Both the position numbers and the translations under genes were made by a program. DNA of 38,319 nt from Patescibacteria group bacterium (GTDB lineage Bacteria; Patescibacteriota; Microgenomatia; Woykebacterales; 2-01-FULL-43-14), in NCBI GenBank assembly GCA_023485445.1, contig JAMCZT010000008.1, positions 1 to 38,319 on the forward strand. Reading direction: 5' to 3'. The notes under the pieces were generated by a model, which saw nothing but the letters and a program-made list of their open reading frames with translations, was not told the DNA's origin and searched no databases. How positions within the stretch are numbered: position 1 is the first letter of the stretch; every line of letters starts with the position of its first letter. This document shows positions 9,864 to 27,600 of this stretch, piece by piece.

Positions 9864-11798
9864 TTGGTCAATTTTTCCTACTTCTTGAAGATAGGTAAAA
9901 AATACCAAGTTGCATTGGTTTTTTTTACAATCTTACTAATTTCGATTACTTTGGCTTCTGCAAAGCAAATTTTTGCCGCGGATAAGTTTTCTGTTTCTTA
10001 TGACGTAATCTATAACGTAGAAGAGAATAACAATACCCAGGTAACCCAAAACGTTCGCCTTACCAATCAAACGCGTAATTTTTACGCCACGGAATATACC
10101 CTGAGTATCGGTTCAACGAAGATAAAGGATGTCTCAGCTTCCGATAACGGGGGAAATATCGCGCCTGAAGTCAGCACCAAAGAAAATTCGACTGATATTA
10201 AGTTAAAATTTAACGATAAGGTGATTGGCCAAGGACGAGTCTTAAATTTCAAACTTGTTTACATTGTAGAGGATGCCGCGATCAAAAACGGCCTGATTTG
10301 GGAAGTTAACGTTCCAAAACTAGCCTCCACGGGGGATATAGACACCTATAACCTCAAAATCAGGATCCCGAAAAACTTTGGCGACCTTCATTATATTTCT
10401 CCTGAACCAAAAGGAAAAGCAGATTCAGACAAGACGGAATATCTTTTTGATAAAGACCAACTCGCCAAAAGCGGAGTAGTGGCTGCTTTTGGCCCATATC
10501 AAGTTTTTGATTTTGAACTAAAGTATCATCTCGGAAACGATAGCCTTTTTAGCACCTTTTCCGACATTGCCCTTCCTCCCGATACAGAAACCCAGCAAGT
10601 TTATTTTAGTCAGATTGACCCGCTTCCAGAAAAATTCTTTACCGACGACGATGGCAACTACATGGCAAAGTATAAAGTTAATCGAGGGGAAAAGCTTAAT
10701 ATTACCGTCAAAGGTTCGGTGAGAATTATTGGGAACGACAAGTACTTTAACGCAAAAAAATGGACAAGGTCAGAACTAAATCAGTATTTAAAACCCGATA
10801 AATACTGGGAATCAAATGACCCTACTATCGTTGCGAAAGCCAAAGAACTCAAGACCCCGGAAGCAATTTATAACTACGTCGCGACTACTTTAAAGTATGG
10901 CTACGAACGGGTAAAAGACCCAAATTTGGAAAGAATGGGAGCCCTAACCGCCCTTAATAATCCAGATCAGGCTATTTGCATGGAGTACACCGACCTTTTC
11001 ATCACTCTCTCTCGGGCCGCTGGCATTCCCGCCAGAGAGCTTGATGGGTTCGCTTATACCGAAAACAAAAAATTGAGACCGACAACAATCGGCGGAAAAG
11101 AAAACAGTGATGTCCTCCACGCCTGGCCTCAATATTATGACTTCGAAAAAAGTCGCTGGGTCTCTATCGATCCAACCTGGGGATCAACAACGGGAGGAAT
11201 CGATTATTTCCATAAGCTTGACACAAATCACTTTGTCTTCGCGATTAAGGGTATCTCTTCTAACCAACCACACCCTGCTGGTAGCTATAAAATTGATCCC
11301 AGCAACCAAGGGGATGTCAAAGTTACCTTTGCCGGCAAGGATCCGAATGGCGAACCAAAGTTAGAAATTAGCGTAAAAAATACAGAAGTACCCGCGGGAT
11401 TCTCAACTAACGTCGAGGTCGACGTAAAAAATAATGGACCGAAAGCGTTGCAAAATGCTAAGTTAAACATCACTACCCAAGCGCTAGAACTTTTGAACGA
11501 GAAAAGTATTGAAATCGGAAATGTGTTGCCTTATGAAAATAAGATCATCACCCTTAAACTCCGAACGAAAGATCTTTTCCTAAACAAAGTAGACCCTCTT
11601 TATTTAGAAGTAAAAGGAACGGATGGAAGAAACCCCATCAGTAGCGCAGTCCTTAAACCGATCCAAATCAAGCCTTTTTTGATTTACGGTTTTTTCCCAT
11701 GGCTCGGATTATTCGCCCTCGCGGTAATGGCTTTTGCAGGACTACTGATTCTTTATAACAAACTTAAAAAGTCGTCAACTTCGAACCCTACTTCATAA
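9864..11798 (+). CDS. Secreted, membrane-anchored transglutaminase-like protein
   Basis: The 644-residue protein starts at a TTG preceded by GAGGAG in the end of the response regulator gene. It has an N-terminal signal segment (hydrophobic about 17-35, then SAKQIFAADK), an N-terminal beta-rich region, and a transglutaminase-like core (about 325-465). The likely catalytic triad is Cys372 (QAICMEYTD), His419 (DVLHAWPQ) and Asp436 (SIDPTWG). A beta-sandwich domain of the bacterial alpha-galactosidase NEW3 or CARDB type follows (about 490-605), then a C-terminal transmembrane helix (about 613-637) and a basic tail. The topology puts the catalytic domain outside the cell, anchored by the C-terminus. 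Members of this fold act as cross-linkers or as proteases/amidases, so the substrate is unknown. Coupling to a two-component system and closeness to the cohesin genes hint at a surface role. Confidence 0.85.
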   Translation: MVNFSYFLKIGKKYQVALVFFTILLISITLASAKQIFAADKFSVSYDVIYNVEENNNTQVTQNVRLTNQTRNFYATEYTLSIGSTKIKDVSASDNGGNIAPEVSTKENSTDIKLKFNDKVIGQGRVLNFKLVYIVEDAAIKNGLIWEVNVPKLASTGDIDTYNLKIRIPKNFGDLHYISPEPKGKADSDKTEYLFDKDQLAKSGVVAAFGPYQVFDFELKYHLGNDSLFSTFSDIALPPDTETQQVYFSQIDPLPEKFFTDDDGNYMAKYKVNRGEKLNITVKGSVRIIGNDKYFNAKKWTRSELNQYLKPDKYWESNDPTIVAKAKELKTPEAIYNYVATTLKYGYERVKDPNLERMGALTALNNPDQAICMEYTDLFITLSRAAGIPARELDGFAYTENKKLRPTTIGGKENSDVLHAWPQYYDFEKSRWVSIDPTWGSTTGGIDYFHKLDTNHFVFAIKGISSNQPHPAGSYKIDPSNQGDVKVTFAGKDPNGEPKLEISVKNTEVPAGFSTNVEVDVKNNGPKALQNAKLNITTQALELLNEKSIEIGNVLPYENKIITLKLRTKDLFLNKVDPLYLEVKGTDGRNPISSAVLKPIQIKPFLIYGFFPWLGLFALAVMAFAGLLILYNKLKKSSTSNPTS

Positions 11799-11843: not shown

Positions 11844-13088
11844 ATGGATAGTCAAAATCTCCCCGACAAACCCGGGGTTTATCTCTTTAAGGACAAAAAT
11901 GGTAAAGTCATTTACGTGGGAAAGGCGGTTAACTTAAAAAACCGGGTCCGTTCGTATTTTCAAAATAACCTTTTGCCTAAAACAACTCTCTTGGTGTCAG
12001 AAATAAAACATATTGAGCATATCGAAGTACAGTCAGAAGTAGAAGCTCTTATTCTGGAAGCAAATCTCATTAAGAAATTCCGTCCTTATTATAATGTCCG
12101 TCTTAAAGACGATAAGGACTACTTGTATATAGAGATAACCAAAGAAACTTTTCCAAGGGTAATGACCGCTCGTTTACATGATTTAAGGGGAGCAAAAGTT
12201 CATTTCGGCCCTTTTCCAAATGGAACCGCTGTTCGACAAACCTTGAGGCTTCTCCGCAAACTTTTCCCTTACCGAAGCTGCCGTGATTTACAAAATCGCC
12301 CTTGTCTTTATTTCCATATCGGCCGCTGCCTCGGCCCCTGCCAAAAAAATTTTGATAAAAAGGAATATGAAAAGACGATTCGTCAGATAATCCTCTTTTT
12401 GAAAGGGGGAAAAGAAAAAATCGTTCAACAAATTACCCAAGAAATGAAACAAGCGGCTAAAAAATTGGACTTTGAAAAAGCCGTCAAGCTCCGCAATCAA
12501 TTAAGCGCAATTGAGTATGTGACCACTCAAACGAAAGTTATTTCAAATTATTTAGAGAATCCAAACTTAATGGAAGACTTACGCCATGAAGAGCTATCCC
12601 AGCTTAAGGAAATCCTTAAACTTGAAAGGTTGCCCCACAGAATTGAATGTTTCGATATCTCAAATATAGGTGGGGAAAATGCGACAGGGTCAATGGTAGT
12701 TTTTTCATCCGCCCAACCAAACAAAAAAGAATATCGGAGATTTAAAATAAAATCGGTACGGGGAATCGACGACTACGCGATGATGCGAGAGGTACTTAGC
12801 AGGAGGTTTAAAAATAGCTGGGCAAGTCCAAACCTAATCGTCGTCGATGGGGGAAAGGGCCAACTGAACGCAGCTCTCGAAATTTTAAATAAAGAAACTC
12901 TAACCACCCCCGTCATCAGTCTGGCTAAAAGGGAAGAAGAAATTTTTATTATGAATCGATCAGCTTCAATTAAGCTTCCTAAAGAATCTCCTGCCCTACA
13001 TCTCATCCAACGACTTCGTGACGAAGCCCACCGCTTTGCCCTTAATTATCACCGCAAACTGCGTACAAAATACTCCCTGTCAAAATGA
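11844..13088 (+). CDS. uvrC: Excinuclease ABC subunit UvrC, short form lacking the HhH domain
   Basis: UvrC is the dual-incision nuclease of excision repair. The product is 414 residues, against about 600 in typical bacteria. The GIY-YIG nuclease domain (about 5-85, PGVYLFKDKNGKVIYVGKA) makes the 3' cut, a Cys-containing segment SCRDLQNRPCLYFHIGRCLGPC follows (about 145-166), then the UVR motif that binds UvrB (about 195-235, DFEKAVKLRNQ). The RNase H-like endonuclease domain has its acidic residues in CFDISN, VVDGGKGQ and RDEAHRFA and makes the 5' cut. The protein ends right after that domain with RTKYSLSK, so the tandem helix-hairpin-helix DNA-binding tail is absent. The next ORF overlaps it by 4 bp if the longest start is used. 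There is no sign of a frameshift, so the short form looks natural. Confidence 0.93.
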   Translation: MDSQNLPDKPGVYLFKDKNGKVIYVGKAVNLKNRVRSYFQNNLLPKTTLLVSEIKHIEHIEVQSEVEALILEANLIKKFRPYYNVRLKDDKDYLYIEITKETFPRVMTARLHDLRGAKVHFGPFPNGTAVRQTLRLLRKLFPYRSCRDLQNRPCLYFHIGRCLGPCQKNFDKKEYEKTIRQIILFLKGGKEKIVQQITQEMKQAAKKLDFEKAVKLRNQLSAIEYVTTQTKVISNYLENPNLMEDLRHEELSQLKEILKLERLPHRIECFDISNIGGENATGSMVVFSSAQPNKKEYRRFKIKSVRGIDDYAMMREVLSRRFKNSWASPNLIVVDGGKGQLNAALEILNKETLTTPVISLAKREEEIFIMNRSASIKLPKESPALHLIQRLRDEAHRFALNYHRKLRTKYSLSK

Positions 13089-13121
13089 AGAATAAAATTT
13101 TTAATTTAATTTTTTGCCCTA

Positions 13122-13151
13122 TTGACATGTCGTGTATTTCTAGTGCAAAAT
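13122..13151 (+). promoter_or_regulatory. Candidate promoter of the cohesin adaptor gene
   Basis: TTGACA (13122-13127) is a perfect -35 box. With an 18-nt spacer the -10 would be CAAAAT (13146-13151). An overlapping TATAAA at 13151-13156 is a better -10 match but would require a 23-nt spacer. A weak ribosome site (ACAGGT, about 13156-13161) and the ATG at 13172 follow. A promoter here favours the internal start over the 4-bp overlap start at 13085. Confidence 0.4.
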
Positions 13152-13171
13152 ATAAACAGGTAACCAACCAT

Positions 13172-14941
13172 ATGATATTAACCAACCTGTCAAAACATGA
13201 ACTTTTTATTGTTATTATAACTTTTCTTGTCGCTTTTTCTTTACCTTTTGCTGTGAATTTGGCTTTAAATCAAACAAGCGTTAGGATTAAAGCCACTTCT
13301 ACACCTACCTCTCTAACTCTTGCCAGTAGCGCTACTAGCGGGGCTACGATTAATATTGGCGACCCGATCGATGTGGCAATTTACCTTAATAACGTAAACG
13401 GCGTCGCTATTTCGGCAATCGATACGGTTGTAAAGTACAACCCCGCAGTGGTCGGAGTAGCCCCTTCAACACCAGTTACTTACGGAAATATCTTTGGGTC
13501 AGGCGCTCAGTTTTGTGGAACTACTTGCAGTGCTGCTCTAAACTCTGTTGATATGTCAGGGGGATCTGAAACAGGGAAGGTAATGATTAGCACTTTGGCC
13601 TGGGATAGTCTAGGAGGAGCAAGCCTAAGCGCCTATTCCGCGACCTCTTCGGCTCAAATTGCAACGGTTCGTTTTGTCGCCAAAGCTGCCACTACAAGTA
13701 GCAGTATTTTTCTAGATTTTAAAGGAACACCGACTGCAGATCCAAATGTAATTACTTGTAGCGATACTGACCCAGTCGTCGCCAATCGTTGTTCAACGAC
13801 GGACTCAAATGTCGTTAAACAACTTTCCGCAGGTGAAACATCTGCAGATGCCGATACCTTAACCAAAGTAACTAACATTTCATTTGCCGTAACCAGCCCT
13901 ACTCCTGCCACATTCTCTAGTGTCTCACCGACATCAGGGCAAGTAGGAACTCCAGTAACAATTACCGGAACAAATCTAGGTACTAGCGGTACTATTTCTT
14001 TTAATGGTGTCCTCGGGACGGCGACCTCATGGAATGATACGAATATAGTGTTAAATGTCCCGAACAATGCCACTTCAGGTACAATTACAATTCAAACAGT
14101 CAATGGAACAATCACGACAACTAGCTTCTCTGTCGTTGCTGCGCCACCGACAATTTCCAACTTTTCGCCAACATCAGGATTGGTAGGTGCCTCAGTCACA
14201 GTTACTGGAACCAATTTTGGTTCAACAAGTACCGGCGCTCAAGTTCTTTTCAACGGCACGGTTGCCAATTCTATAACTTCATGGAACAGCACGACCATCG
14301 TCGCAACAGTACCTAATGGCGCAACAACAGGTAAGATCTCTGTTACTTTACCAGCTGGAAGTGCCACTAGCGTAACAGATTTTACAGTAAATCCTCCAGC
14401 GTTGGTCGATAACACTCCACCAGCCATCACAAATGTGGCAATCAGTAACGTCACAATCTCAGGTGCAACTATTACTTGGGTAACCGACAAATCATCAACA
14501 TCCTTAGTTGAATACGGAACCACTGCCGCGTATGGTTCTTCTTCGAATGGGGATAGTGGCATTTCGCATTCTGTTAATTTAACTAATTTAACCGCGGGGA
14601 CGACTTATCATTTCCGAGTCAGGAGCAACGATGGAAATGGTCATGAGGCGATTGAAAATGATAATTACTTTACAACATTAACACCAACTCCAGCGCCAAC
14701 ACCAACCCCGGAACCAACTCCAGCGCCAACACCGGCCCCGGAACCAACTCAAAACAACACACCAGCCCCCACAAAGCCAACTTCTGACCTGAACAAGGAT
14801 GGTAAAGTTAATGTCTTTGATCTGTCGATCTTATTAAGAAAGTGGAACAGAACTAGTGACGTGGCTGATGTAGACTTAAACAGTGACGGTAAAGTGAACG
14901 TATTTGACCTTTCAATTTTACTCAGAAGCTGGAACAGATAA
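13172..14941 (+). CDS. Secreted cohesin-IPT-IPT-FN3-dockerin protein (possible adaptor scaffoldin)
   Basis: From the ATG at 13172 the protein is 589 residues and opens with a signal peptide (MILTNLSKHELF, then a hydrophobic stretch to about residue 32). The ORF-track start at 13085 overlaps uvrC by ATGA but adds 29 non-signal residues, so it is the less likely alternative. A cohesin-like beta-sandwich follows (about 45-225; INIGDPIDVAIYLNNVNG, VVKYNPAVVGV, TVRFVAKAA). Then come two IPT/TIG domains (about 235-405, each opening SPTSG...GTPVTITGTNLG-like), an FN3-like domain similar to purple-acid-phosphatase N-domains (about 415-495; TYHFRVRSND), a Pro/Thr/Glu linker and a C-terminal dockerin (538-589). 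The dockerin halves are almost identical (DLNKDGKVNVFDLSILLRKW / DLNSDGKVNVFDLSILLRSW). Carrying both a cohesin and a dockerin is the hallmark of an adaptor scaffoldin. Binding partners are inferred. Confidence 0.85.
   Translation: MILTNLSKHELFIVIITFLVAFSLPFAVNLALNQTSVRIKATSTPTSLTLASSATSGATINIGDPIDVAIYLNNVNGVAISAIDTVVKYNPAVVGVAPSTPVTYGNIFGSGAQFCGTTCSAALNSVDMSGGSETGKVMISTLAWDSLGGASLSAYSATSSAQIATVRFVAKAATTSSSIFLDFKGTPTADPNVITCSDTDPVVANRCSTTDSNVVKQLSAGETSADADTLTKVTNISFAVTSPTPATFSSVSPTSGQVGTPVTITGTNLGTSGTISFNGVLGTATSWNDTNIVLNVPNNATSGTITIQTVNGTITTTSFSVVAAPPTISNFSPTSGLVGASVTVTGTNFGSTSTGAQVLFNGTVANSITSWNSTTIVATVPNGATTGKISVTLPAGSATSVTDFTVNPPALVDNTPPAITNVAISNVTISGATITWVTDKSSTSLVEYGTTAAYGSSSNGDSGISHSVNLTNLTAGTTYHFRVRSNDGNGHEAIENDNYFTTLTPTPAPTPTPEPTPAPTPAPEPTQNNTPAPTKPTSDLNKDGKVNVFDLSILLRKWNRTSDVADVDLNSDGKVNVFDLSILLRSWNR
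14684..14750 (+). repeat. 30-bp tandem repeat encoding the Pro/Thr/Glu linker
   Basis: A 30-bp unit (14684-14713) is repeated at 14714-14743 with two changes, followed by a 7-bp partial copy. It encodes TPAPTPTPEP-type sequence between the FN3-like and dockerin domains, a flexible and probably glycosylatable linker typical of scaffoldins. Such repeats expand and contract easily, so linker length may differ between strains. Confidence 0.7.
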
Positions 14942-14972: not shown

Positions 14973-16151
14973 ATGTTTAACAAAAAAGTAATTAGTATTT
15001 TTAGTTTATCTTTTTTAGGTCTTCTTCTTTACACTAAACCAGCTTTTGCGGCTACCTTATCTCTCTCTCCGGGCAGCGGAAATATCAACCAGGGAAGTAC
15101 TCTAAATGTCCAAGTAAAGTTAAACGCAGGTGGAGATGCCGTAAACGCGGTTTCCGCCTTTTTGACTTATTCAGCAGATAAACTTGATGTCGCTTATGTC
15201 AGTTACAGTTCATCTGCTTTTGGAATTGAAGCTGAAAACACTTATGGAGGAGGGAGCATTAGAATATCACGGGGAAGCGTAAGTCCGATAAGCGGAAACG
15301 CAACGGTAGCCACAATTGGTTTTAGAGGAAAGACACTAGGAAATGCATCTGTTTCGTTTGCGGCCGGTTCCGCGGCCCCTCGTGCCTCTGACAGCTCTGA
15401 TTCGCTTAGTTTAGCTGGTAGTGGCGGTGGGAGTTATAGTGTGGTAGAAGCTCCGCCGGAACCACCAAAAGACACTACTGCTCCTAAAATCTCGGGAATT
15501 TCCGTTGTAGATACTTCCACAACCAGTGCAACAATTACCTGGAAAACGGATGAAAAAGCAGATTCTTATATCGAGTATGGTTTAGAAAAGGATAAATATT
15601 TCCTAAATGTCTCTAACGGCGATTTAGTAACGGAACATTCATTAAAATTGGAAGGACCAGTCTTAGTGGCGGGAACTAAATTTCATTATCGAATAAAGTC
15701 AAAAGACGCTGCGGGAAACCAAGTGGTTGGAGATGACGGAGTTTTTCAGCTAAAAGGATTCAAAGTAATCGTAAAGGCTGTAGACAACAATAATAAACCT
15801 TTAGTTGGTATAAAGGTATTACTTTATAGTGATCCGTTAGAAGCAGTAACCAACTCAAAAGGAGAGGCTAGTTTTGATAATGTCGCTCCCGGAAAACACT
15901 TGGTGCTAATCAAATCAAATAATGCTGAAAAAACAAACGAAATAACAGTAACTGCGTCATCCGTTCCACAAGTTACTACGATAAACGTAGGAGCGCCACT
16001 TATCGAATCGTCACAACAAGGGAATATTTTCAGCAATCTTGCGGTTTATGCTGTAGTTATCGTCCTTGGAATTATTATCGGAGTTCTTTACTACTTCTTA
16101 AAAATTAAGAGGAAAACTCCTAGTAACACTAGTAATTCTTCTAGTTATTAA
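14973..16151 (+). CDS. Membrane-anchored cohesin protein (possible anchoring scaffoldin)
   Basis: The 392-residue protein has a typical signal peptide (1-26, ending KPAFA). A cohesin-like domain follows (about 27-150): LSLSPGSGNINQGSTLNVQV, then AFLTYSADKLDVAYV and ATIGFRGKTLGNASVSF are the usual cohesin strands. Next come an FN3-like domain (about 165-255; TSATITWKTDEKADSYIEYG) matching that of the upstream protein, a carboxypeptidase-regulatory-like beta-sandwich (about 257-335; NNKPLVGIKVLLYSDP) and a C-terminal transmembrane helix (about 348-372) with a KIKRK stop-transfer tail. The topology places the cohesin outside the cell, tethered to the membrane. It starts 31 nt after the previous gene with Shine-Dalgarno AAGGAGT (14959-14965). 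It has no dockerin. In cellulosome terms it would be an anchoring scaffoldin receiving dockerin proteins encoded nearby; partner choice is untested. Confidence 0.87.
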   Translation: MFNKKVISIFSLSFLGLLLYTKPAFAATLSLSPGSGNINQGSTLNVQVKLNAGGDAVNAVSAFLTYSADKLDVAYVSYSSSAFGIEAENTYGGGSIRISRGSVSPISGNATVATIGFRGKTLGNASVSFAAGSAAPRASDSSDSLSLAGSGGGSYSVVEAPPEPPKDTTAPKISGISVVDTSTTSATITWKTDEKADSYIEYGLEKDKYFLNVSNGDLVTEHSLKLEGPVLVAGTKFHYRIKSKDAAGNQVVGDDGVFQLKGFKVIVKAVDNNNKPLVGIKVLLYSDPLEAVTNSKGEASFDNVAPGKHLVLIKSNNAEKTNEITVTASSVPQVTTINVGAPLIESSQQGNIFSNLAVYAVVIVLGIIIGVLYYFLKIKRKTPSNTSNSSSY

Positions 16152-16197: not shown

Positions 16198-16233
16198 TTA
16201 AGACCCTGTCCCTGACCAGGGACAGGGTCTTAA
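16198..16233. repeat. Perfect 16-bp palindromic hairpin before the dockerin array
   Basis: TTAAGACCCTGTCCCT (16198-16213), a 4-nt loop GACC, and AGGGACAGGGTCTTAA (16218-16233) form a perfect, GC-rich stem in an AT-rich gap. It is followed by AAATCTAAGGA rather than a U tract, so it is not a classical terminator. It begins 46 nt after the cohesin gene and ends 14 nt before the first dockerin gene, just upstream of its ribosome site. It resembles a REP-type dispersed palindrome; copies elsewhere in the genome cannot be checked here. Confidence 0.65.
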
Positions 16234-16247
16234 ATCTAAGGATTTAG

Positions 16248-17273
16248 ATGAAAAGGAAGTTTATATTCATTTCGTTAATAATATGTTTTTTTGCCAGTTA
16301 TTTTTTGTACTGTAAAAATGTATCAAATGAATTTGGCAAAGTTAAAGAAGTTAAAGCTCAAACCGCCCCGGTTGATTATAACGATGTGATTTTCCTCCAT
16401 CATTCAACAGGTCAGGGATTGATCGATGGCGGAAATGTAAGAAAACTTTTGACGGATTTAGGTTACCAATTTTGGGATCACGGCTATAATTCTCAAGGCC
16501 TTACCTTACCAAACGGTACTTCAGCTGGTTATAATTATAATATTCCAAATGATAATACTGACCCGATCGGACTCGTCACCACATTTGAACTACCTTTCGA
16601 CGCATCTTCTCCCGCACATCCAAGTCAACCAACTAATGCTCTGTCCGGATTATTGCGGCACAAAGTAATCGCTTTCAAGTCGTGCTTTCCAGCGAGTGCC
16701 ATTTACAACGATGCGATGCTAAACCAGTATAAAGATTATTACCTTCGAATCAGAAATGTAACCGATAAGTACCGAGACCATATTTTCATTGCTTTTTCCA
16801 CCCCACCCCTTCACCCCTCAAGTACCGATTCTCAACAAGCTACCAGGGCTCGAGCTTTCGCTAATTGGCTAAAATCTCCCGAGTATCTTGACGGACACCC
16901 AAACCTTTTTGCTTTTGATTTCTTTGATTTACTAGCCGCGCCTGCAGACGCGACCACTGAAGCCAATATGCTTCGCGCCGAATATCGACCTCCCTATGTT
17001 GATTCCCACCCAAACGCCTTAGCCAATCAAACCATCGGCCCAATTTTTGTAAATTTTATAGACAACGCCGCTAAAAGTTACAATCCAAACTCCTGGCCAA
17101 TCAAATCTTTGCTTGGTGATTTAAACGGTGACAATGTTGTTAACAAGGTTGATGTTGACGAACTTCTCAACAACTGGGGGTATTTCCCTCGAAACGTTAA
17201 AGCTGACACAGATATCAACGGAGTGGTTAATGGAGTAGATTTTGCCTTAGTTATTAAAGATTGGGGCAGATAA
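16248..17273 (+). CDS. Secreted SGNH-hydrolase-like protein with C-terminal dockerin
   Basis: The 341-residue protein starts with a signal segment (hydrophobic 5-21) followed by EVKAQT, the same processing-like motif as its neighbours. The catalytic region (about 42-275) has FLHHSTGQG with candidate nucleophile Ser53, the FKSCFPAS block, and a C-terminal DSHPNALAN containing candidate Asp252 and His254. This pattern fits the SGNH/GDSL fold, whose extracellular members are often carbohydrate esterases, so de-acetylation or de-esterification of a polysaccharide is a reasonable guess. The dockerin (289-341) has loops DLNGDNVVN and DTDINGVVN; the second is slightly irregular. Shine-Dalgarno AAGGA (16238-16242) lies 5 nt before the ATG. 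It is the first gene of the packed dockerin array, and the next gene begins 4 nt after its stop. Base composition is CpG-rich, unlike the next gene. Confidence 0.8.
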   Translation: MKRKFIFISLIICFFASYFLYCKNVSNEFGKVKEVKAQTAPVDYNDVIFLHHSTGQGLIDGGNVRKLLTDLGYQFWDHGYNSQGLTLPNGTSAGYNYNIPNDNTDPIGLVTTFELPFDASSPAHPSQPTNALSGLLRHKVIAFKSCFPASAIYNDAMLNQYKDYYLRIRNVTDKYRDHIFIAFSTPPLHPSSTDSQQATRARAFANWLKSPEYLDGHPNLFAFDFFDLLAAPADATTEANMLRAEYRPPYVDSHPNALANQTIGPIFVNFIDNAAKSYNPNSWPIKSLLGDLNGDNVVNKVDVDELLNNWGYFPRNVKADTDINGVVNGVDFALVIKDWGR

Positions 17274-17277
17274 CTCA

Positions 17278-20200
17278 ATGGGAAGAAAATTTATACTTGT
17301 TACCGCTTCAATTATTATTTTTCTTATTGGCCTAAACCTTCTTAATAAAAATAATAATTCGATAAATTTACCCTCTAAAATCCAAGCCCAAACATTAGAC
17401 TCCGACTGGCCTCAATTAGGACACGACTCTCAAAAAAGTAATGCTACTAACCAAATTGTAAATGGTCCTTATCGCTTTTATTGGAGATGGACAGATGTGC
17501 CCATTGCTTCTCGAATTCAACCGGTAATATTTAATGGGACTATGTTTGTAGGAGGGCTAAATGGAACTTTCTATGCTCTTGATGCTGCAGCTGATACTCG
17601 AGGACAAGCTCCTAGGATAGTCTGGCAAAGAGATCTCAAAGACCCAACAGGAGCACTTAACTCACCCATTAGATCTGGAGCCGGAGTTGATGATGCAACC
17701 AATACAGTTGTTGTAGGTACTCAACATGGAGTAATTTATGGTTTGGATATTGCAACAGGCAATGTGGGGGGTAGTCCAAAATGGACTGTCCAAACTGGAG
17801 GAGCTATTTTAGCCTCTCCTCTTATGTATAATGGAGTAGCTTATCTTGGTTCCTCAGATGGTAACTTCTATGCCATAAATACTGCTGACGGAAATGTCTT
17901 GTGGAAGCATCCAATTACTGATCCGGTTAAAGGTAATGTACCTATATTAGGTTCAGCTGCCTTATCTGCAGATGGATCGAGACTTTTCTTTGTGGCGGAA
18001 AATGTTCAGGCTTATGCTTTAAATACTGCTGATGGATCCGAAAGCTGGAACCAGCAACTCCAAGGCCAATCTGGAGCTGACCGCTGGCCAGTAGTGTTGG
18101 GTAACACTGTAGTTTTTAGAACCCAGCCAATTAGAAATTTATGGGATCTTTTACATGAAGGTGATACTGTCATGGATTCTGCAGGAACTGTTTTGGCTGA
18201 TTGGAGTGCTGACTGGAATATTGTTAGACCCCAAATTATTAATAACTTGACTGCAAGTCCTGTCAACCAGACCCTTTTTGTTTTAGATGTTAATACCGGA
18301 CAATCAAAGGGAGTGGCTCCGGTTTTGGCTACTTATGGTACTCAAGATCCGCCCGCTCCACCTACTGTTTATAATCAAATGTTTTATCTTCCTTACCGAG
18401 CCCGTCATGGAATTCAAACAGATGGCGGATCTGTCCATGTGACTACCAGATATGATGCAGAACTCGGAAGAATGGATCCAACAACTTTGGATATTGCAGG
18501 GCTTACTACTGCTGACACCTTTACTTATCAGTTCCGGATGACCTCTGATGAACAATCTGTTCCTACACTGGCTGGCAATTTACTTTTAATGGACAGTTGG
18601 GAAAGGTTAGGTGGGGTACAACTGACTGCATCTACCAATGGTAATTTGGTTGCTATTGCTCAAAGAGCAGCTAATGATTCTTGCGGTTGGGGGCCAGGTG
18701 GAAACCAAATTGTTTTTTCCGAAAACTGTCCTTCTGCTGGACCTTTGACTACAGAAGGAAGAGCTAGAGCAGGAGCAGTGGTAGGTTCTGGCAGGATCTT
18801 CTGGCATGTCGATGCTGTTACCGATGCCAATGGTAGTGGCTATGAATTTTCTGGCAGTGGCTTAGGGGCAATTGGTCCAGCCACTGGAGGTACGACCATA
18901 CCTTTACCTGCAGGAACTGCGCTTTCTCCAATTAGTCCGCTACCATCCAGAGCAGCCACTCCTTCAGCTCAGGCTTTGCTCAATTACATTACCACTGAAC
19001 CAACGCGTCCGGTTGCTGCCCCGACTGATTTAACGACAAAATTAGAGCAGGAAATCCAAAAAATAGTTAGCGCCAATGGTCATTTATTACCTTTATTTAT
19101 TCAGCCGGGAGGATTCAACCCTCTAGGTTCTTATCCCCAAGATACTAATAACCCACCTGAGCCGGCTGTTGTAGCTGGGTCAGATGCATTTTGGTTTGAT
19201 CCGGGTGAACAAGTTCTGACTTTATCACAAGCGTATCCTTATCTTAATCCAACTCTTCAAGGACAGCTTAAAACTTATTTGCAGACTGAGATTAATCGAT
19301 TTTCACCCTTACAAATGCTTCCCTATGGTGCATCTTACGGATCATCCGGTGATTGGTTAAGAACTGGAGTCTCTCGAGAGTTTTATCCAGTGACAATTCG
19401 CAGTAGTCTAGGTACTGGTAACCTTGGAAGTTGGCCACCACCGGCACCAGCTATTCAAACTATATATTCTCTGTGGGCCTACGCCAAATATGTTGATGGT
19501 TTTGGTCCAACCTCTTATGTAGCCACAAATTGGACCAGTATTAAAAATCTATTTGATGCCAAAAAAGGCACTGTAAATAATTATGCGAGAATTGCCGGAG
19601 CAATTGGGTACTCTCGTATAGCTGCTCAACTTGGTCATACTGCTGAAGCCACCGAGGGACAAAACGTGGCTATTGCTGCCATGCAAAACGGAGTAAATTT
19701 CCAGAATTGGTTAGACGTTGCTGACAATGTTTATACTCCCACAACTCCCGATTATAGGCAAAACCAACTAAATAGAGAGCCTGGATTCCGAGGTCAGGTG
19801 TTTTTTGGTCTGACACCGGAAATTGGGAGGTTTTTAAGGGATACTAATAATACTCCAGTTAATACCTTTATTAATCGGTTGACCCATTACACCAATAATG
19901 ATTACCTTTGGTATGTAACTCGGGTAGGTATACAAGGAGAGGCGGGTGAAAATAGTTTCCAAAATCCTGAACTAGGCTGGTCTGTTTTCTTGGCTCAAGC
20001 GTATATTAATGGAGCCAGTCAACAGCAACTGAGGTATTGGTTAGACAGGCCTTGGGGATTGGGTGACCTCTGGTATTTGCAAAAATTAGTTGCTACTATT
20101 GAGGCGCCTTCATCGGCTTTTTCTTTAGCTGATATCAACCAAGATAGTCAAGTTAATATTAAAGACATGGAAATCTTGTTTGATAATTGGAATATGCCAA

Positions 20201-20289
20201 AAAATCGAAGGGCAGATATCAATGGTGACGGAATAGTTAACAGTGTTGATTTTGCACTGGTTTTAAAGGATTGGGGTAAAGTAAAATGA
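17278..20289 (+). CDS. Secreted PQQ-type beta-propeller / helical-domain protein with dockerin
   Basis: This 1003-residue product has an N-terminal hydrophobic segment (about 5-21), a polar spacer and KIQAQT. The PQQ-like beta-propeller (about 40-530) opens DWPQLGHDSQKS and shows blades such as FYALDAA, IYGLDIATGN, FYAINTADGNVLWK and AYALNTADGSESW. After a Pro/Thr/Ala linker (about 540-575) comes a large helical domain (about 580-945) with EQVLTLSQAYPYLNP, YSLWAYAKYVDG and RPWGLGDLWYLQKL. The same helical motifs occur in four other proteins here. Its alternating helix and aromatic pattern suggests an (alpha/alpha)-toroid, as in many glycosidases and lyases, but I cannot name the family. The dockerin is at 951-1000 (DINQDSQVN, DINGDGIVN). 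The gene overlaps the next by 4 bp. CpG is sparse compared with genes on either side of the array. Confidence 0.8.
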   Translation: MGRKFILVTASIIIFLIGLNLLNKNNNSINLPSKIQAQTLDSDWPQLGHDSQKSNATNQIVNGPYRFYWRWTDVPIASRIQPVIFNGTMFVGGLNGTFYALDAAADTRGQAPRIVWQRDLKDPTGALNSPIRSGAGVDDATNTVVVGTQHGVIYGLDIATGNVGGSPKWTVQTGGAILASPLMYNGVAYLGSSDGNFYAINTADGNVLWKHPITDPVKGNVPILGSAALSADGSRLFFVAENVQAYALNTADGSESWNQQLQGQSGADRWPVVLGNTVVFRTQPIRNLWDLLHEGDTVMDSAGTVLADWSADWNIVRPQIINNLTASPVNQTLFVLDVNTGQSKGVAPVLATYGTQDPPAPPTVYNQMFYLPYRARHGIQTDGGSVHVTTRYDAELGRMDPTTLDIAGLTTADTFTYQFRMTSDEQSVPTLAGNLLLMDSWERLGGVQLTASTNGNLVAIAQRAANDSCGWGPGGNQIVFSENCPSAGPLTTEGRARAGAVVGSGRIFWHVDAVTDANGSGYEFSGSGLGAIGPATGGTTIPLPAGTALSPISPLPSRAATPSAQALLNYITTEPTRPVAAPTDLTTKLEQEIQKIVSANGHLLPLFIQPGGFNPLGSYPQDTNNPPEPAVVAGSDAFWFDPGEQVLTLSQAYPYLNPTLQGQLKTYLQTEINRFSPLQMLPYGASYGSSGDWLRTGVSREFYPVTIRSSLGTGNLGSWPPPAPAIQTIYSLWAYAKYVDGFGPTSYVATNWTSIKNLFDAKKGTVNNYARIAGAIGYSRIAAQLGHTAEATEGQNVAIAAMQNGVNFQNWLDVADNVYTPTTPDYRQNQLNREPGFRGQVFFGLTPEIGRFLRDTNNTPVNTFINRLTHYTNNDYLWYVTRVGIQGEAGENSFQNPELGWSVFLAQAYINGASQQQLRYWLDRPWGLGDLWYLQKLVATIEAPSSAFSLADINQDSQVNIKDMEILFDNWNMPKNRRADINGDGIVNSVDFALVLKDWGKVK

Positions 20290-21851
20290 AGAAACTCTTT
20301 TTAATTATCACTATTTTGGCCAGTACCGTAATCTTAGCTTTTATCTCTCAACCAAAGACTAGACACTCTCCTCCTAACCTTCCCGCTTTAGTCCAAGCTC
20401 AAACCACCGGTACCGATTGGCCTCAGGTTCAAAAAGATGCTGCTCACACCGGATATTCTTCTGAAACCTTAGGCACTAATTTCAAAGTAGCCTGGACTCA
20501 TCCTTTCCAGCCAGACAGAGTCCATCCTCAAGTCCAAGCTATTATCTACAAAGGTAAAGCTTTTGTAGGTACTGAAGGGGCTAATGGTCAAAAACCAACC
20601 CTTTATGCCCTAAATTCTACCAATGGCCAAGAAGTTTGGAAATTTGAAGCAGGTGGACCAATATTAAACTCAGTCGCTGCAGATAATGGCAAAGTCTTCT
20701 TTGGATCATTAGATGGAGCTGTTTATGCCATCTACACTGATACTGAAAATGGGCATACTCAAGGCCAACTTGCCTGGAAACAACAATTATCCCAAAGATT
20801 AGGCTTTTCAACAGCACCGATAGTAGCTGATAATAAGGTTATGCTGGGTGGACAGGATGGTTACTTTTATGCTTTGGATCCAGGAGATGGCCACACGATC
20901 TGGAGGTATGATGCCGATGCTCCTATTATTCAAACTGCTGCTTATGACCAGGGCAAAGTTTTCTTTGGCACGCTTGATATGTATGTTTATGGCTTAAATA
21001 CGTCTCCGGCAAATACTAATGATCCGGCATCTATTCTTGCTTGGAAGAGCGCTAAACTGGATGGTAAAGGTTTTAAAGATTATTGGCCAGTTGTTACTCA
21101 AGGTAAAGTACTGGCCAGACCCATACCCAAAGAACCATGGGTCTATACAGGTTTTCCGAATTTAGGCTTTCCTTTTGTCCAAATCTGGAGTGCTTCCGAT
21201 CCTAACTGGACATGGCTAAACACTAATAGTTCGGCTATAGCTGCCGGCCATGCTGCACAAGTGGCCGATATTATTAATTCGCAAAACAAAGCTATAGCTA
21301 GTTATGAGGCTAATCCGGGTAGCTTCCAGAAAAATCTTTATGTTTTGGATGAAAATACCGGTCGGGAACCTTTTGCCGTACCTCAGTGGATTGAGCAAAC
21401 CATGAACGGCACTCCGGCTGCCCCTTGTGTTGATCGGGATGGTAAACTAGTTACCCCCGTATCGTTTATCCGCAGTGGATGGGGCAGGCTCGAGTTGGCA
21501 ACAAGTAGCGGTCGGATTACTGATCTTTTGTATGATGGTTATGATTGGTATGAGCAGCCATTTAATTCGACAAGTGGGGGTAGTCCGGCTGGAATGGGTA
21601 ATCCTGATGAAAATTTGGCGGTTAGTTGTACGGCTAACTTAATTCTCTCCGCTCATCACATGGAGACAAACGCAAATTACACCGGAGCCTTTAATTTAGA
21701 TACCAGAAGATGGATACAAATTCCACCTGGTTACAGAAATAGCCAAATGTTTAACAATACCCAGGCCGGAGGCACTAATCCTTTCTCTATTTCCAACGGT
21801 ATGATTTATCATGTGGCGGTTAATGAATTAGTAGCCAGGACAACGAATTAA
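20286..21851 (+). CDS. Secreted PQQ-type beta-propeller protein lacking a dockerin
   Basis: The 521-residue protein starts with a signal segment (3-21) and VQAQT near residue 36. Only a PQQ-like propeller follows (about 42-518): it opens DWPQVQKDAAHTG and has blades LYALNSTNGQEVWKFE, VYAIYTDTENG, FYALDPGDGHTIWRYD and VYGLNTS. It ends at VNELVARTTN, exactly where propeller paralogues continue into a linker and helical domain. It therefore lacks the helical domain and dockerin found in the related products. The next ORF is in the same reading frame, separated only by this TAA plus three codons, and supplies the missing parts. It may be the front half of a split gene, or the pair may be the ancestral arrangement. 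It overlaps the upstream gene by ATGA. Confidence 0.78.
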   Translation: MKKLFLIITILASTVILAFISQPKTRHSPPNLPALVQAQTTGTDWPQVQKDAAHTGYSSETLGTNFKVAWTHPFQPDRVHPQVQAIIYKGKAFVGTEGANGQKPTLYALNSTNGQEVWKFEAGGPILNSVAADNGKVFFGSLDGAVYAIYTDTENGHTQGQLAWKQQLSQRLGFSTAPIVADNKVMLGGQDGYFYALDPGDGHTIWRYDADAPIIQTAAYDQGKVFFGTLDMYVYGLNTSPANTNDPASILAWKSAKLDGKGFKDYWPVVTQGKVLARPIPKEPWVYTGFPNLGFPFVQIWSASDPNWTWLNTNSSAIAAGHAAQVADIINSQNKAIASYEANPGSFQKNLYVLDENTGREPFAVPQWIEQTMNGTPAAPCVDRDGKLVTPVSFIRSGWGRLELATSSGRITDLLYDGYDWYEQPFNSTSGGSPAGMGNPDENLAVSCTANLILSAHHMETNANYTGAFNLDTRRWIQIPPGYRNSQMFNNTQAGGTNPFSISNGMIYHVAVNELVARTTN

Positions 21852-21860
21852 TTAAGATTT

Positions 21861-24638
21861 ATGACTAAAGATTTACGATTAAAGAATATCAATTGTCATT
21901 GCGAGCGTAAGCGAAGCAATCTTTATCTTTTGTTTAATGGATTGCCACGAATCCTTTGGACACTGGCAATGACATTAGTGTTACTTTCAACATTTAGTGT
22001 AAATGAGGTGCATGCCCAGACTGTGGATCCTTCGGTGTGGCAAACAGGAGCAACTGGATTAAGGGCCACTGCTAATAATGAAAGTAAAACAGCTGGGCTT
22101 TCAATTATTATCAAGGCGTCAAGTGTCCCGTTTATGTCCCTGCAGGGAGGGGTGAAAAATGGGGGGTGGGGAAGGGTTATAGGACCTACTACAGTTGATT
22201 TGGGTGAAATTAAATTACCTGGGATAAATCCTTCTCTCGTTTCCCAGGTGTCTGATTGGTCACATAATGAAATGTCTTTTACTAACAATTTAAATATTTG
22301 GATTTCCAGGCTTTCCCCGGCGGTATTAGTTCAAAACTTAAACAACTCTTTAAGATTATTTTCTGGTAATTTAAATGGAGGTGTATTTGCTCCTGGAAGC
22401 GCCATCGGCGAACCTTGGTATCAACAAGTGGTTCAAGGCAGAACTCCCTCGCCTGTCTATCCTAAATATATAGCATATTCCTCAGGCGGGAATATCAGGG
22501 TTCAACAAATCCCTGCTTCAGGAACTACTGCCTTAAGCCTGCCTGATTTAGATAGTAATTGGATCCTGGTTTGGTATGGCAATAATAGTTATTTTGTAGA
22601 TACAAAAAAACCGCTAACTTATTCAGGTACAAGTGATAATTATCCTGAATCAAATCTCGCCATACAATACACCTATCAAGCAGATCCCCCAATGTTAATT
22701 AAATTCCAAAATAATCCTACAAGTATTATTCAAACTTCTGAAGGAGGAATAGATTTAGCCTTTAATGGTAATTCTGGTTATACCTCAATGATGCCTCTTT
22801 TAGGCAGAGAACATTTGAAAGCAACAGACACAGAAGGATGGGGAACTTCTGGAACATTACCAGCAAATGTTTTGACTAAGATTAATTTCTGGAATACTAA
22901 CAACAGATTATGTTCTTATCCAACAACTGTCTCAGAAACCTATGCTTATGATACCAGTAGTGATACTTCAACTATCTCAGAAAATATCAATTACCTTAAT
23001 GTTTGTCTTGGAGGATCAACTACTTCAGGTTTTACTATCTTACCTCCATCTGTATCTTTGGCTAAAGACGCTTTAGGCACAAGCTTTAATATTTCTGGAA
23101 CGCCTACTGATGCTAATTATCCTACAGAATTTGGACCAATTATTGGAATTGATAATACTAACCATTATTCTTACTCCATTTCTGGCTTTAAAAAATATAC
23201 CGATGTAAAAAGAGTGGCAACTAATTCAAACGGAGCACCAGCTGATTTATTACAAAGCCTAATCGCTCAGGTGGATAAACTCATTGCTGCTGGGCATTTA
23301 GCTCCTTGGGTAGCTCATGATGCAGCTCAGGGTGATCTTACCGGCTCAGTGGAATTTATTAATCCTGCAGATACTATTTACCATTTAGCAGAAGTTATTC
23401 CAATTTTACCTGAACCTCAAAAAACCAATCTGATTAATTATCTTAAATCTGAAAGAACAAACTTTCCCCCAGAAACTGTTTATAATCTGTCACTAACTCA
23501 AGGAACAGCCAGAGAAGATTATGCTTTGCCTTTATCCAGAACATCAATTGGACCAACTTATGCTCAAAGATGGGAACAGTTTCGCTCAGACATATTTTTG
23601 AAGCAGATCCCGCTTTATAATTTCTATGCTTTGGCTAATTATTATGATGTTACAGGTGATACTGTTCCTTCTTCTGTTCTTACTGCAGCTGTTTCTGTAT
23701 TAAATGCAAATATGGCCGAGCAGGATTGGGCCACTTTTTATTGGTTTAAGGGGTTTGATCAACAAGAAGTAGCAGTGGAAAATGTTAACAGGCACTTAGC
23801 CGGACTTGTTGGCTTAACCAAACTTGCCAAAAAGGCTAACAATTCTCAAGTCGAAAATTTATCTCGGGCACTTTTAGCAAAAACTGCCCTAGAAAGAATT
23901 GCCTTTTTGGAATACCCAAGTTACCTTTATACTTCTGGTCTTATGGATTTGGCTTCACTACCTGCTAATTGGCAGCCTCTTCAGTTAACCACTGATTTTT
24001 ATGGATATATTATTAACTATAACTGGCAGAATGCCAATGATGATGTCCGTCAAATGTTAACTTTGAACCAATTTGAAAGTTACCTTTCTGATCATTCTGG
24101 TACCAGTAGGGTGTGGAGAAAAGCAGTCAATCCAGATTTGATTACTTTTAAAGGAATGGTGCCAGAAGCTTTCAGGTTTTTGGCTGACTTTGATAAATCA
24201 AAAGCAGAAATTTATGTTAAAAAGGTAGAAACTTATATTCCTTCCTGGTATCTAGCTTTAGATTCAGCTCAGGTTGGAGCAGAACATGGAACAAGCCATC
24301 CGGGTGATTCTTTCCAAATTTTTATGGCTAAGGATTTAATCAATGGAGAATCAGCACAAAACTTAGCTCGCTATACCAGTTTTCCCTGGCTTAATATTGG
24401 TGATTTTTTCTATATGCAAAAGCTGGCAGAAACTATTAAAGCTTATGAGGGAGTAACTTGGGAAGATCAAACATACTTAGCAGGGGACATTAACCAAGAT
24501 CATACCGTAAACTTAGATGATATCAAGATTTTGTTTGATAACTGGAATATGCCCAGAGATAGAAGGGCTGATGCCAATGGCGATGGGGTAGTCAACGGGG
24601 TAGACTTCGGCTTATTATTAAAAGACTGGGGGAAATGA
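21861..24638 (+). CDS. Secreted helical-domain protein with dockerin; 5' end overlaps a palindromic repeat
   Basis: The ORF (925 residues) begins in sequence that is partly a dispersed-type palindromic repeat; residues about 13-38 are its translation (NCHCERKRSN...). The real start may be the ATG at 21969, inside the terminal inverted repeat, giving 889 residues with signal peptide MTLVLLSTFSVNEVHA and mature start QT. A beta-rich domain (about 60-465; SNWILVWYGN, IDLAFNGNSGYTSMMP, VSETYAYDTSSD) matches the middle of the 1331-residue protein at the array end. The helical domain follows (about 470-865; VDKLIAAGHLAPW, NPADTIYHLAEVIPILP, NIGDFFYMQKLAETI), then the dockerin (874-925; DINQDHTVN, DANGDGVVN). 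There is no propeller of its own; the preceding gene supplies one. Neither candidate start has a clear Shine-Dalgarno sequence. CpG is very sparse. The enzymatic role is not identified. Confidence 0.8.
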   Translation: MTKDLRLKNINCHCERKRSNLYLLFNGLPRILWTLAMTLVLLSTFSVNEVHAQTVDPSVWQTGATGLRATANNESKTAGLSIIIKASSVPFMSLQGGVKNGGWGRVIGPTTVDLGEIKLPGINPSLVSQVSDWSHNEMSFTNNLNIWISRLSPAVLVQNLNNSLRLFSGNLNGGVFAPGSAIGEPWYQQVVQGRTPSPVYPKYIAYSSGGNIRVQQIPASGTTALSLPDLDSNWILVWYGNNSYFVDTKKPLTYSGTSDNYPESNLAIQYTYQADPPMLIKFQNNPTSIIQTSEGGIDLAFNGNSGYTSMMPLLGREHLKATDTEGWGTSGTLPANVLTKINFWNTNNRLCSYPTTVSETYAYDTSSDTSTISENINYLNVCLGGSTTSGFTILPPSVSLAKDALGTSFNISGTPTDANYPTEFGPIIGIDNTNHYSYSISGFKKYTDVKRVATNSNGAPADLLQSLIAQVDKLIAAGHLAPWVAHDAAQGDLTGSVEFINPADTIYHLAEVIPILPEPQKTNLINYLKSERTNFPPETVYNLSLTQGTAREDYALPLSRTSIGPTYAQRWEQFRSDIFLKQIPLYNFYALANYYDVTGDTVPSSVLTAAVSVLNANMAEQDWATFYWFKGFDQQEVAVENVNRHLAGLVGLTKLAKKANNSQVENLSRALLAKTALERIAFLEYPSYLYTSGLMDLASLPANWQPLQLTTDFYGYIINYNWQNANDDVRQMLTLNQFESYLSDHSGTSRVWRKAVNPDLITFKGMVPEAFRFLADFDKSKAEIYVKKVETYIPSWYLALDSAQVGAEHGTSHPGDSFQIFMAKDLINGESAQNLARYTSFPWLNIGDFFYMQKLAETIKAYEGVTWEDQTYLAGDINQDHTVNLDDIKILFDNWNMPRDRRADANGDGVVNGVDFGLLLKDWGK
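21894..21974. repeat. Palindromic dispersed-type repeat at the 5' end of a coding region
   Basis: An 81-bp element bounded by the inverted repeat TGTCATTGC / GCAATGACA, with inner repeats GCAATC / GATTGC. The sequence type (TGTCATTGCGAGCG...AAGCGAAGCAATC...GATTGC...GCAATGACA) is, to my knowledge, a widespread non-autonomous palindrome of many bacterial genomes, whose translation CHCERxxS is often seen as spurious peptide. Here it sits at the junction between the propeller gene and the helical-domain gene, and its right end supplies an in-frame ATG (21969-21971). Confidence 0.75.
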
Positions 24639-27600
24639 TGAAAAAAGTTCTCTTGACTTTCCTGGCCGTTCTTGCCCTCTGGACTTTTATTTATCAGAAA
24701 AACCAAGTCTACTTGATGAAAATTAACGCTCAGACCACTGGTCCTCAAATTGGTAGTATTAACGATAACCTTTCAGCTTATCCTAATTCCATCGTTCCGC
24801 AGTATTCTAAATTTGAACTTACTTTTAGTATTAACAACACTGTCGCAACGAATTTACAGTTTCCTTACGATGCTAGCCCACCCACCGGGTTGATTGGCAA
24901 AATTGGCCTTTCCGTGGACGGGCTTTTTACGACGGATAATTGGGCCACTACGATTACCCAACCTGGCTTTTTATATCAGGATTATGAGCAAACGGTGCAA
25001 AACAACCGAGAGCATCTTTATCCCAAAGGGGTACCGGTTTGGAAGATTCGCTTTGCGCCAAAGATTAAGGGAACTTATCATTATAAAATCAGAGCTACGG
25101 ATGACTCCGGAATAAATTATTATCCCACTAACGGTGATTTGACTTTTTCCGTGGGTGATTCACCACCAAGTAATCACGGTTTTATTCAGGTCAGTCCTAA
25201 TGATAAGCGCTACTTTGAATTTTCCGATGGTACACTCTTTAATCCTGCGGGGGTAAACGGGGGTTTTGACGCCAAAAACGATAGTTTGGTCACTCTTGAT
25301 CAAAAACTCACCCAACAATCTAACAACGGCCTCAACCTGTTCCGTCTTTGGATGAGCGGGACTTCAATTGCTGGGTCGGCTTGGTCTCCTTGGATCTGGT
25401 TTGGTGGGCCTTGGTATGGCGGTTATATTCCTAACTCAGCGCTTTGGGTGAACCCTCAAAAAAACCAGACCAACCCTCTTTATAACCCCACCGCCAGCAG
25501 CGAAGACTACATCTTTGCTCTAAACTATAATCCGCCCAACACTTCCGCCGCCTGTTTATTTACCGGCTGGATGAATCCGCCTATTTCAGTCAAACCCAGC
25601 ACAAAGTATCATTTTAAAGTTCGCGCTTTGGCAGAAAACGTTACCGGTCCAAGAAATTCTGCTCAAACTAACTATGGTTTAACGCTAAAAATTGCCGGTT
25701 GGCCCAACGCAGACGCCAATTCTTGTCCCGACGCGTTGTCTTCTTACTCAGCCCTAACGCCTTACCTTAACGGGAATGGCTGGCAGACGGTTGAAGCTGA
25801 CTACACTACGACAGGAAGTCAACAATTTATCGATTTTCTTTACATGGTCATGGACAACGTTAATACTGGTTCTTATGCTCACGTGGCCGAGGTTTCGATG
25901 AAGGAAGTTTTAGCCAACGGTTCGCTGGGACCGGAGATTTTAATTAAGAGCAAATCCGATATGCAGAACGACTTTAACTTACGCGAATCTTGGAAATGGG
26001 ATTATCTTTTCGATAGAGCGGCCGAAAAGAATATTTACTTTAAAACGGTCGTTTTAGAAAAAAACGATCGAGTCTGGAACATGATCAAACCAGACGGAAC
26101 CATGGATACCACCGAAAGCAACAACAATTTTTACGCCGTTGACCCTTCCGATTGGACGAAAGAAACTAAAGTGAGAAGATTGCAAGAATATTTTTGGCGG
26201 TACCTCGCCGCCAGGTGGGGATACTCGACGGCTGTCCACTCTTGGGAATTCGTGAACGAAGGCGACCCGTTTAGCGGATATCATTATACTTCTACCGAAG
26301 CTTTTGCCAAATATATGCATCAAAACGAACCAGAGCGACACTTGGTGGCCACTTCCAATTGGCATTCTTTTCCCGTCGATAGTTTTTGGGGCAATTCTGC
26401 CTATCCCGACGTTGATTATGCCGATATTCATGCTTACATTAACACTGGTAGTTACAATTGGTCGCCACCAACGGGAACCTATTTGGAGACAGATTCGGCA
26501 AACGTGATGGACAGTAAGGGCGGCTCGATCAGGGTACCAGCAGGGAAGAATAGTGTTAATGGTGATCTTGGTTATCCGGTTAAGGGTCAAGGAAAATGGA
26601 CAATTTCTGTTTGGATGAAAATAAATAATTACACTGGTAGTTGTCCTTACGGAATGTCTTCCGGCTTGGCCGGACCAATTTTTAGGATCAACATGGATGG
26701 AACGGGCGGTTTTACAAGAAGCATTCCTTACGATCCGACTGATCCCAATAAATATTACGTGTGTACCAACTCATTTACTGGAACGAAAGATTGGACCAAG
26801 TTTTCGGAAGCCTTCGATATCCCGGATAGCGTGTATCACAATCTTCGCGTGGGCTTTGACACTTCATATGCGACAACCGGCACCGCTTGGTTTGATAACT
26901 TAGAGATTACGGATCCAGCAGGGAAGAAGTTTTACGTTTTAGGCGATGGCACCTTTGATGATCAAGTTCGCCTTGATCAAGATACGGCAGTTTATGCTCA
27001 GAGCTTAAGTAGTTTATATAGTTCCGCCGGGCCAGCGGGCGCCGCCAAACCTACTATTCGAGGAGAAACCGGTATCGTTGATCCGTTGACAGGTGGCGAG
27101 TGGTCAGAACTGGCTAAAGACACCCAAGGAGTTTGGTTACATAAATTTATTTGGGGGCAGATAAATTCTGGCGGCATATCGAGCTTATACTGGTGGCAGG
27201 ATGCAATTAACAAAAATAATCTTTGGGGGCAGTTTAAGCCGTTTTCAAACTTTATGCAAGGTATTCCGATTAATAATGGTCATTATCAAGACGCGCAGAC
27301 TAGCGTTTCGGACAGTAATTTAAGAGCCTGGGGACAAAAAGATACTTTTAATGGCAAAGCTCATCTTTGGATTGATAACAAAACTGATACTTGGACCAAT
27401 GTCGTCAATAATCCGGGAACTGTTACCCCCGCTTCGGGAACAGTCACCTTTTCTGGAATGCCTATTGGGTCTTACAATATCGCTTGGGTCGATCCTTACA
27501 CCGGCAACACCATCAAAACTGAGACGCTCAACGTAAATGGCGCCGGAAATATTCTTCTTACGTTACCATCGACCTTAACCACCGACGTTGCTGTCAAAAT

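Follow-up and report, generated by a model that had tools for sequence, protein, structure and literature searches.

A membrane-anchored cohesin and its neighbouring adaptor scaffoldin in CPR bacteria: a predicted chain for surface display

A 38,319-nt contig of a Patescibacteria group bacterium from the Woesebacteria/Microgenomates group (the whole stretch is hereafter called the window) carries, side by side, the genes of an adaptor scaffoldin combining one cohesin with one dockerin, of a cohesin protein that ends in a transmembrane helix, and of a series of proteins most of which end in a dockerin. We consider it probable that their products form a display chain, in which the membrane anchor would hold the monovalent adaptor through predicted cohesin-dockerin binding and in a predicted topology, while the adaptor would hold secreted proteins as putative cargo. 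The anchor had been singled out in an earlier note made from the sequence alone; the observation is confirmed here and its interpretation is supported, and it is the cohesin-dockerin adaptor gene, lying upstream of the ORF that the note had covered, which turns out to be the more informative feature.

Results

The anchor gene (14973-16151; like all features below, on the forward strand) begins with an ATG preceded by AGGAG and encodes 392 residues. Its first part (14973-15050) is a predicted signal peptide with the cleavage motif AFA/AT, an export signal judged from inspection of the sequence and from the N-terminal helix (residues 4-18) of the structural model only. The cohesin that the earlier note had recognised follows at residues ~27-158 (15051-15446). 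As a single sequence the protein has no match to Pfam Cohesin; a profile of 14 family sequences retrieved cohesins of the PDB, the best being 2xdh of Archaeoglobus (E=1.3e-5), and the top 39 Foldseek matches of an AF2 model of the domain (pLDDT 76; the anchor models were built from a four-sequence alignment only) are cohesins without exception (39/39), 6kgc among them (E=6e-8, TM 0.77). The two spacers of the note were found as well: an FN3-like one (residues 173-249, 15489-15719), whose single-sequence matches to Pur_ac_phosph_N (E=4e-5) and fn3 (E=0.014) both stay under the curated cut-offs and which recurs in the orthologues, and a carboxypeptidase-regulatory-like (prealbumin-like) one (residues 270-334, 15780-15974), whose match to CarboxypepD_reg (E=1.8e-5) is also under the cut-off and is shared by eight of eight family members. 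The protein closes with a single transmembrane helix at residues 358-376 (16044-16100; hydropathy 2.65; helix 346-380 in the AF2 model) and the basic stop-transfer tail KIKRKTPSNTSNSSSY (16101-16148), that is KIKRK and 11 further residues, an arrangement read correctly in the note and kept in the orthologues. The cohesin module, C-terminal transmembrane helix and export signal that characterize the non-SLH class of anchoring scaffoldins with a C-terminal membrane helix are all three present.

A search of other CPR genomes for this domain order, proposed in the note, shows that it recurs. The same four-part order is found at full length in 13 of 374 genomes of the class (one of them, G009, with two copies) at identities down to 33-40%, which shows that the ORF is not a product of chance. 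Beyond the class, further families of the phylum also have anchor-related proteins. A scan with a three-sequence alignment gave, as named relatives, Ca. Woesebacteria DeMMO6_50 and two Ca. Daviesbacteria. One Daviesbacteria anchor is followed directly by the gene of a giant GH44 + GH5 cellulase protein (L051:11283-20981; over 3,200 aa), with no dockerin in the part examined.

The adaptor gene (13085-14941), separated from the anchor gene by 31 nt, encodes a scaffoldin composed of an N-terminal helix, one cohesin, two TIG domains, an FN3 domain, a PT-rich linker and a C-terminal dockerin. Its cohesin (13352-13741; PF00963, 25.5 bits, over the cut-off) is divergent from that of the anchor (34% identity), and its dockerin (14783-14923; PF00404, 39.1 bits) is of the FDLSILL type, with two repeats that are alike. 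Eight ORFs follow the anchor in the same direction (16248-38184), with short or overlapping junctions except for a 96-nt gap directly after the anchor gene. Seven of them carry at the C-terminal end a dockerin of a type other than the adaptor's, and most are PQQ/BamB-like beta-propellers. In order, they encode a secreted protein with dockerin (16248-17273), a PQQ/BamB-like propeller with a C-terminal region and dockerin (17278-20289), a secreted PQQ-like propeller protein which is the one lacking a dockerin (20286-21851), a further secreted protein with dockerin (21861-24638), a DUF5060-type, putatively carbohydrate-active protein with dockerin (24635-27784) and three propellers with dockerin (27813-31100, 31097-34192 and 34189-38184). 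The possibility that 20286-21851 and 21861-24638 are one broken gene was rejected, the same split into 521 and 924 aa being found in G001 (contig C10). As a possible dockerin-fused enzyme for plant polysaccharides the window has the one DUF5060-type protein, the remaining cargo being mostly propellers; among the dockerin proteins of relatives are chondroitinase-B-like and metallopeptidase-like ones. Two dockerin-tailed proteins with matches to M11/M12-type metallopeptidases were seen beside anchor loci (L129:2603-5560 in G009 and L130:12406-14970 in G006).

The 96-nt intergenic stretch that separates the anchor gene from the first cargo gene folds with z=-4.9 and contains an inverted repeat of 17 nt (16198-16233), whose arms match perfectly around a spacer of 2 nt. 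No T-run follows the repeat, and its core was not seen in loci of other genomes; it could be an attenuator, a terminator or a repeat element. Rfam had no match in the window, PADLOC had no match, and no relative was found among viral contigs.

Comparison of the dockerins suggests which partner the anchor cohesin would take. The adaptor dockerin of the window matches the upstream-gene dockerins of other genera (G001, G006 and G102) at 62-67%, as against 31-44% for the cargo dockerins of its own genome, whose repeats are unlike each other. A simpler arrangement, in which the anchor cohesin would bind the downstream cargo dockerins directly and the adaptor would be just another displayed protein, is plausible for G006, G008 and G009, where the enzyme and adaptor dockerins are both of the DLSILL type; taken as the general explanation we find it unlikely, since the cargo dockerins of the window have departed from the adaptor type while its anchor cohesin has stayed like those of other genera (38-75%). 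A two-tier system, in which the adaptor dockerin would go to the anchor cohesin and the cargo dockerins to the adaptor cohesin, predicts that the likeness between the two cohesins and that between the two sets of dockerins are lost in parallel, as is the case in the window's genome (G000) and in G001: there, the adaptor and anchor cohesins share 24-34% and the enzyme and adaptor dockerins 30-44%, the corresponding values in G006, G008, G009 and G419 being 45-51% and 51-79%. G670, for which the cohesins alone were compared, has adaptor and anchor cohesins at 23% and was counted against the two-tier model. As the split is seen in a single sister pair (G000 and G001), it may reflect one evolutionary event.

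One may also suppose that the adaptor and the cargo are kept in the membrane by their own uncleaved N-terminal helices, so that cohesin-dockerin contacts would cross-link surface proteins and the anchor would not be the main tether; indeed, in the adaptor and several cargo proteins a plausible cleavage site for this helix comes only after a stretch of unusual length. We nevertheless consider such an arrangement quite improbable, because a [V/I]xAQ motif resembling a signal-peptidase site, and hence suggestive of cleavage, follows the N-terminal helix in all eight downstream ORFs (AQT in seven, AQA in one), and because the conservation of a membrane-anchored cohesin would be left unexplained.

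The association of the anchor with a dockerin gene extends well beyond the window. In nine of the 13 class loci whose upstream side is assembled (G000, G001, G004, G006, G008, G009 twice, G102 and G148, G004 being counted on a dockerin fragment at a contig edge), the immediately upstream co-directional gene closes with a dockerin, of the DLSILL type where readable. In six of these loci (G000, G001, G006, G008, the second G009 copy and G148) the upstream protein also has a cohesin, and at the first G009 copy it is metallopeptidase-like. Outside the class, the same pairing of an anchor and an upstream dockerin gene was found in G670, G436 and G419. Co-occurrence with dockerin genes, which the note had put forward as a check, also holds at the level of genomes: a dockerin of the adaptor type (E<=1e-6 in a search started from the adaptor dockerin of the window) is encoded by 12 of the 13 anchor genomes as against 64 of the 374 class genomes (p=2.8e-9, a statistic that ignores phylogeny and counts the query's own genome). 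The presence of any dockerin (12/13 versus 245/374, p=0.03) is a weak test, dockerins being common in the class. It may be objected that the cohesin-like domain is only a jelly roll of structural or adhesive use, borne on a stalk in the membrane and lacking a dockerin ligand, and this would agree both with the four class loci where no dockerin gene lies immediately upstream of the anchor (G035, G283, G226 and G334) and with G007 (95% complete), in which an anchor was found and no dockerin match, the contig ending just upstream of the anchor. Dockerin genes of one type recur next to the anchor, and that very type is enriched at the level of genomes, both of which make this reading still less probable than the preceding one. 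As for two of the four loci, the anchor frame of G226 contains a TGA, and in G035 a DLSMLL-type dockerin gene adjoins a different, short gene encoding a cohesin and a transmembrane helix.

Lastly, the note had proposed that the anchor is held without an SLH module or a sortase signal, and the C-terminal features bear this out. No LPxTG-like motif lies within the last 60 residues of the anchor copies examined, and the tails after the helix are too long for sortase-type signals: they measure 8-35 residues in the class, and those of homologues from the rest of the phylum reach 97. Three sortases are encoded in the window's genome, and the C-terminus of their likely substrate (LPNTG, a transmembrane helix and RKTK as a 4-residue tail) contrasts with that of the anchor; this protein of 1210 aa is encoded at L125:988-5292 (G000, contig C9), where its gene lies immediately upstream of a sortase gene. 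The same genome has no match to the exosortase family and no SLH match over the cut-off, and SLH is absent from the anchor protein. Despite the sortases present and the many short class cohesin proteins with an LPxTG-like end, it is therefore highly improbable that the anchor carries an unrecognised sorting signal, at which it would be cut and then attached to the wall or to a lipid, given the missing motif, the long tails, the LPNTG contrast and the lack of an exosortase match. In its predicted topology, the anchor probably belongs to those anchoring scaffoldins of the cell surface that use neither SLH modules nor a sortase.

The short cohesin proteins just mentioned (~220 aa: a signal peptide, a single cohesin and, mostly, an LPxTG-like motif with a transmembrane helix) are widespread in the class (L016, L021-L023, L026, L027, L031 and others), so that both anchoring modes seem to exist there. 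In the window itself, a transglutaminase-core protein (9864-11798) shows the same simple layout of C-terminal transmembrane helix and basic tail as the anchor. Anchor homologues from outside the class (L151, L152 and L155, in G674 and G436) have long predicted cytosolic tails with a recurring short, acidic and leucine-rich motif (DELDELLQRL-like), possibly a cytosolic contact.

Discussion

In the display chain that we favour, the signal peptide would send the anchor through Sec, the C-terminal helix would stop in the membrane with the N-terminus outside and the C-terminus inside, and the two Ig/prealbumin-like spacers would hold the single anchor cohesin outward. The most likely ligand of this cohesin would be the FDLSILL-type dockerin of the monovalent adaptor scaffoldin encoded upstream and, in the window's lineage, the different cohesin of the adaptor would bind the secreted products of the downstream genes by their dockerins; the outcome would be a two-step non-covalent chain on the CPR cell, leading from the membrane through the anchor cohesin and the adaptor to the cargo. 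It is tempting to go further and to propose that CPR bacteria share a two-gene module for surface display, made up of a membrane-anchored cohesin and a dockerin-bearing partner, which is usually a monovalent adaptor with cohesin and dockerin, and that, within the family to which the window belongs, adaptor cohesin and cargo dockerins co-diverged into a second, separate specificity through which interchangeable cargo (enzymes, propellers, peptidases) would be loaded via the adaptor; this wider proposal seems to us evenly poised between right and wrong.

The note had set the C-terminal membrane helix against the SLH modules and sortase signals of known scaffoldins. The membrane anchoring stands, and it is less unusual than was implied, such a helix being already given as a feature of non-SLH anchoring scaffoldins, with transmembrane-anchored cohesins as a recognised putative class (PMC11557425, 2024); in proteins of H. 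luporum and C. cibarium a single Coh2 is joined to a transmembrane helix, and the binding partners of these proteins are said to be unclear (PMC11557425). The window anchor shares with these scaffoldins the single cohesin on one C-terminal membrane helix and differs from them in its CPR host, its FN3-like and carboxypeptidase-regulatory-like spacers and the adjacent gene of an adaptor with cohesin and dockerin. In the complex cellulosome of Acetivibrio, Coh1/Doc1 serve for enzymes and Coh2/Doc2 for the anchor (PMC11557425); there as in the window, two cohesin-dockerin types apparently part cargo loading from cell anchoring, whereas the window system has no SLH anchor, a monovalent adaptor and cargo consisting mostly of beta-propellers. 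No multi-cohesin primary scaffoldin was found in the window's genome (89% complete), which has few cohesins and, among the genes examined, none that encodes more than a single one. ScaE of Ruminococcus flavefaciens is a sortase-anchored, wall-linked cohesin (PMC12484212) that resembles the window anchor as an anchoring cohesin for a dockerin-bearing scaffoldin, a role which is predicted in the window; of the ScaE-like ending with LPxTG-like motif, transmembrane helix and short basic tail, however, the anchor copies examined lack the motif, and their tails are long.

Cohesins outside cellulose degradation have precedents. ANME archaea have scaffoldin-like dockerin/cohesin proteins (PMC9012536), and the closest solved cohesin by profile, that of Archaeoglobus, likewise comes from a non-cellulolytic setting; these archaeal cohesins belong to a different lineage, and the available part of that source describes no conserved anchor-adaptor pair. 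Within Microgenomates, the same CPR supergroup as the window, cohesin and dockerin genes are reported to be expressed in Ca. Shapirobacterales (PMC9123182); the accessible part of that paper also cites such genes of Roizmanbacterium (as Geesink 2020) and describes neither an anchor nor its pairing. In the literature searched, of which coverage was partial, no description of an anchor-adaptor pair in CPR was found. Membrane-anchored cohesins and the cohesins and dockerins of Microgenomates are thus already known; what is new is the conserved anchor-adaptor pair in CPR together with the apparent two-tier specificity.

CPR bacteria have small genomes, and their surface functions are mostly unknown. 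Together, the anchor, the adaptor and the dockerin-tagged secreted proteins look like a kit for the display of proteins on the surface of a tiny, uncultured CPR bacterium, and the anchor-adaptor gene pair defines a small and concrete set of binding assays. If the proposed chain is true, a conserved membrane-held cohesin with its dedicated adaptor would show how some CPR bacteria retain on the cell the proteins that they secrete, and cohesin-dockerin assembly would extend beyond the degradation of cellulose.
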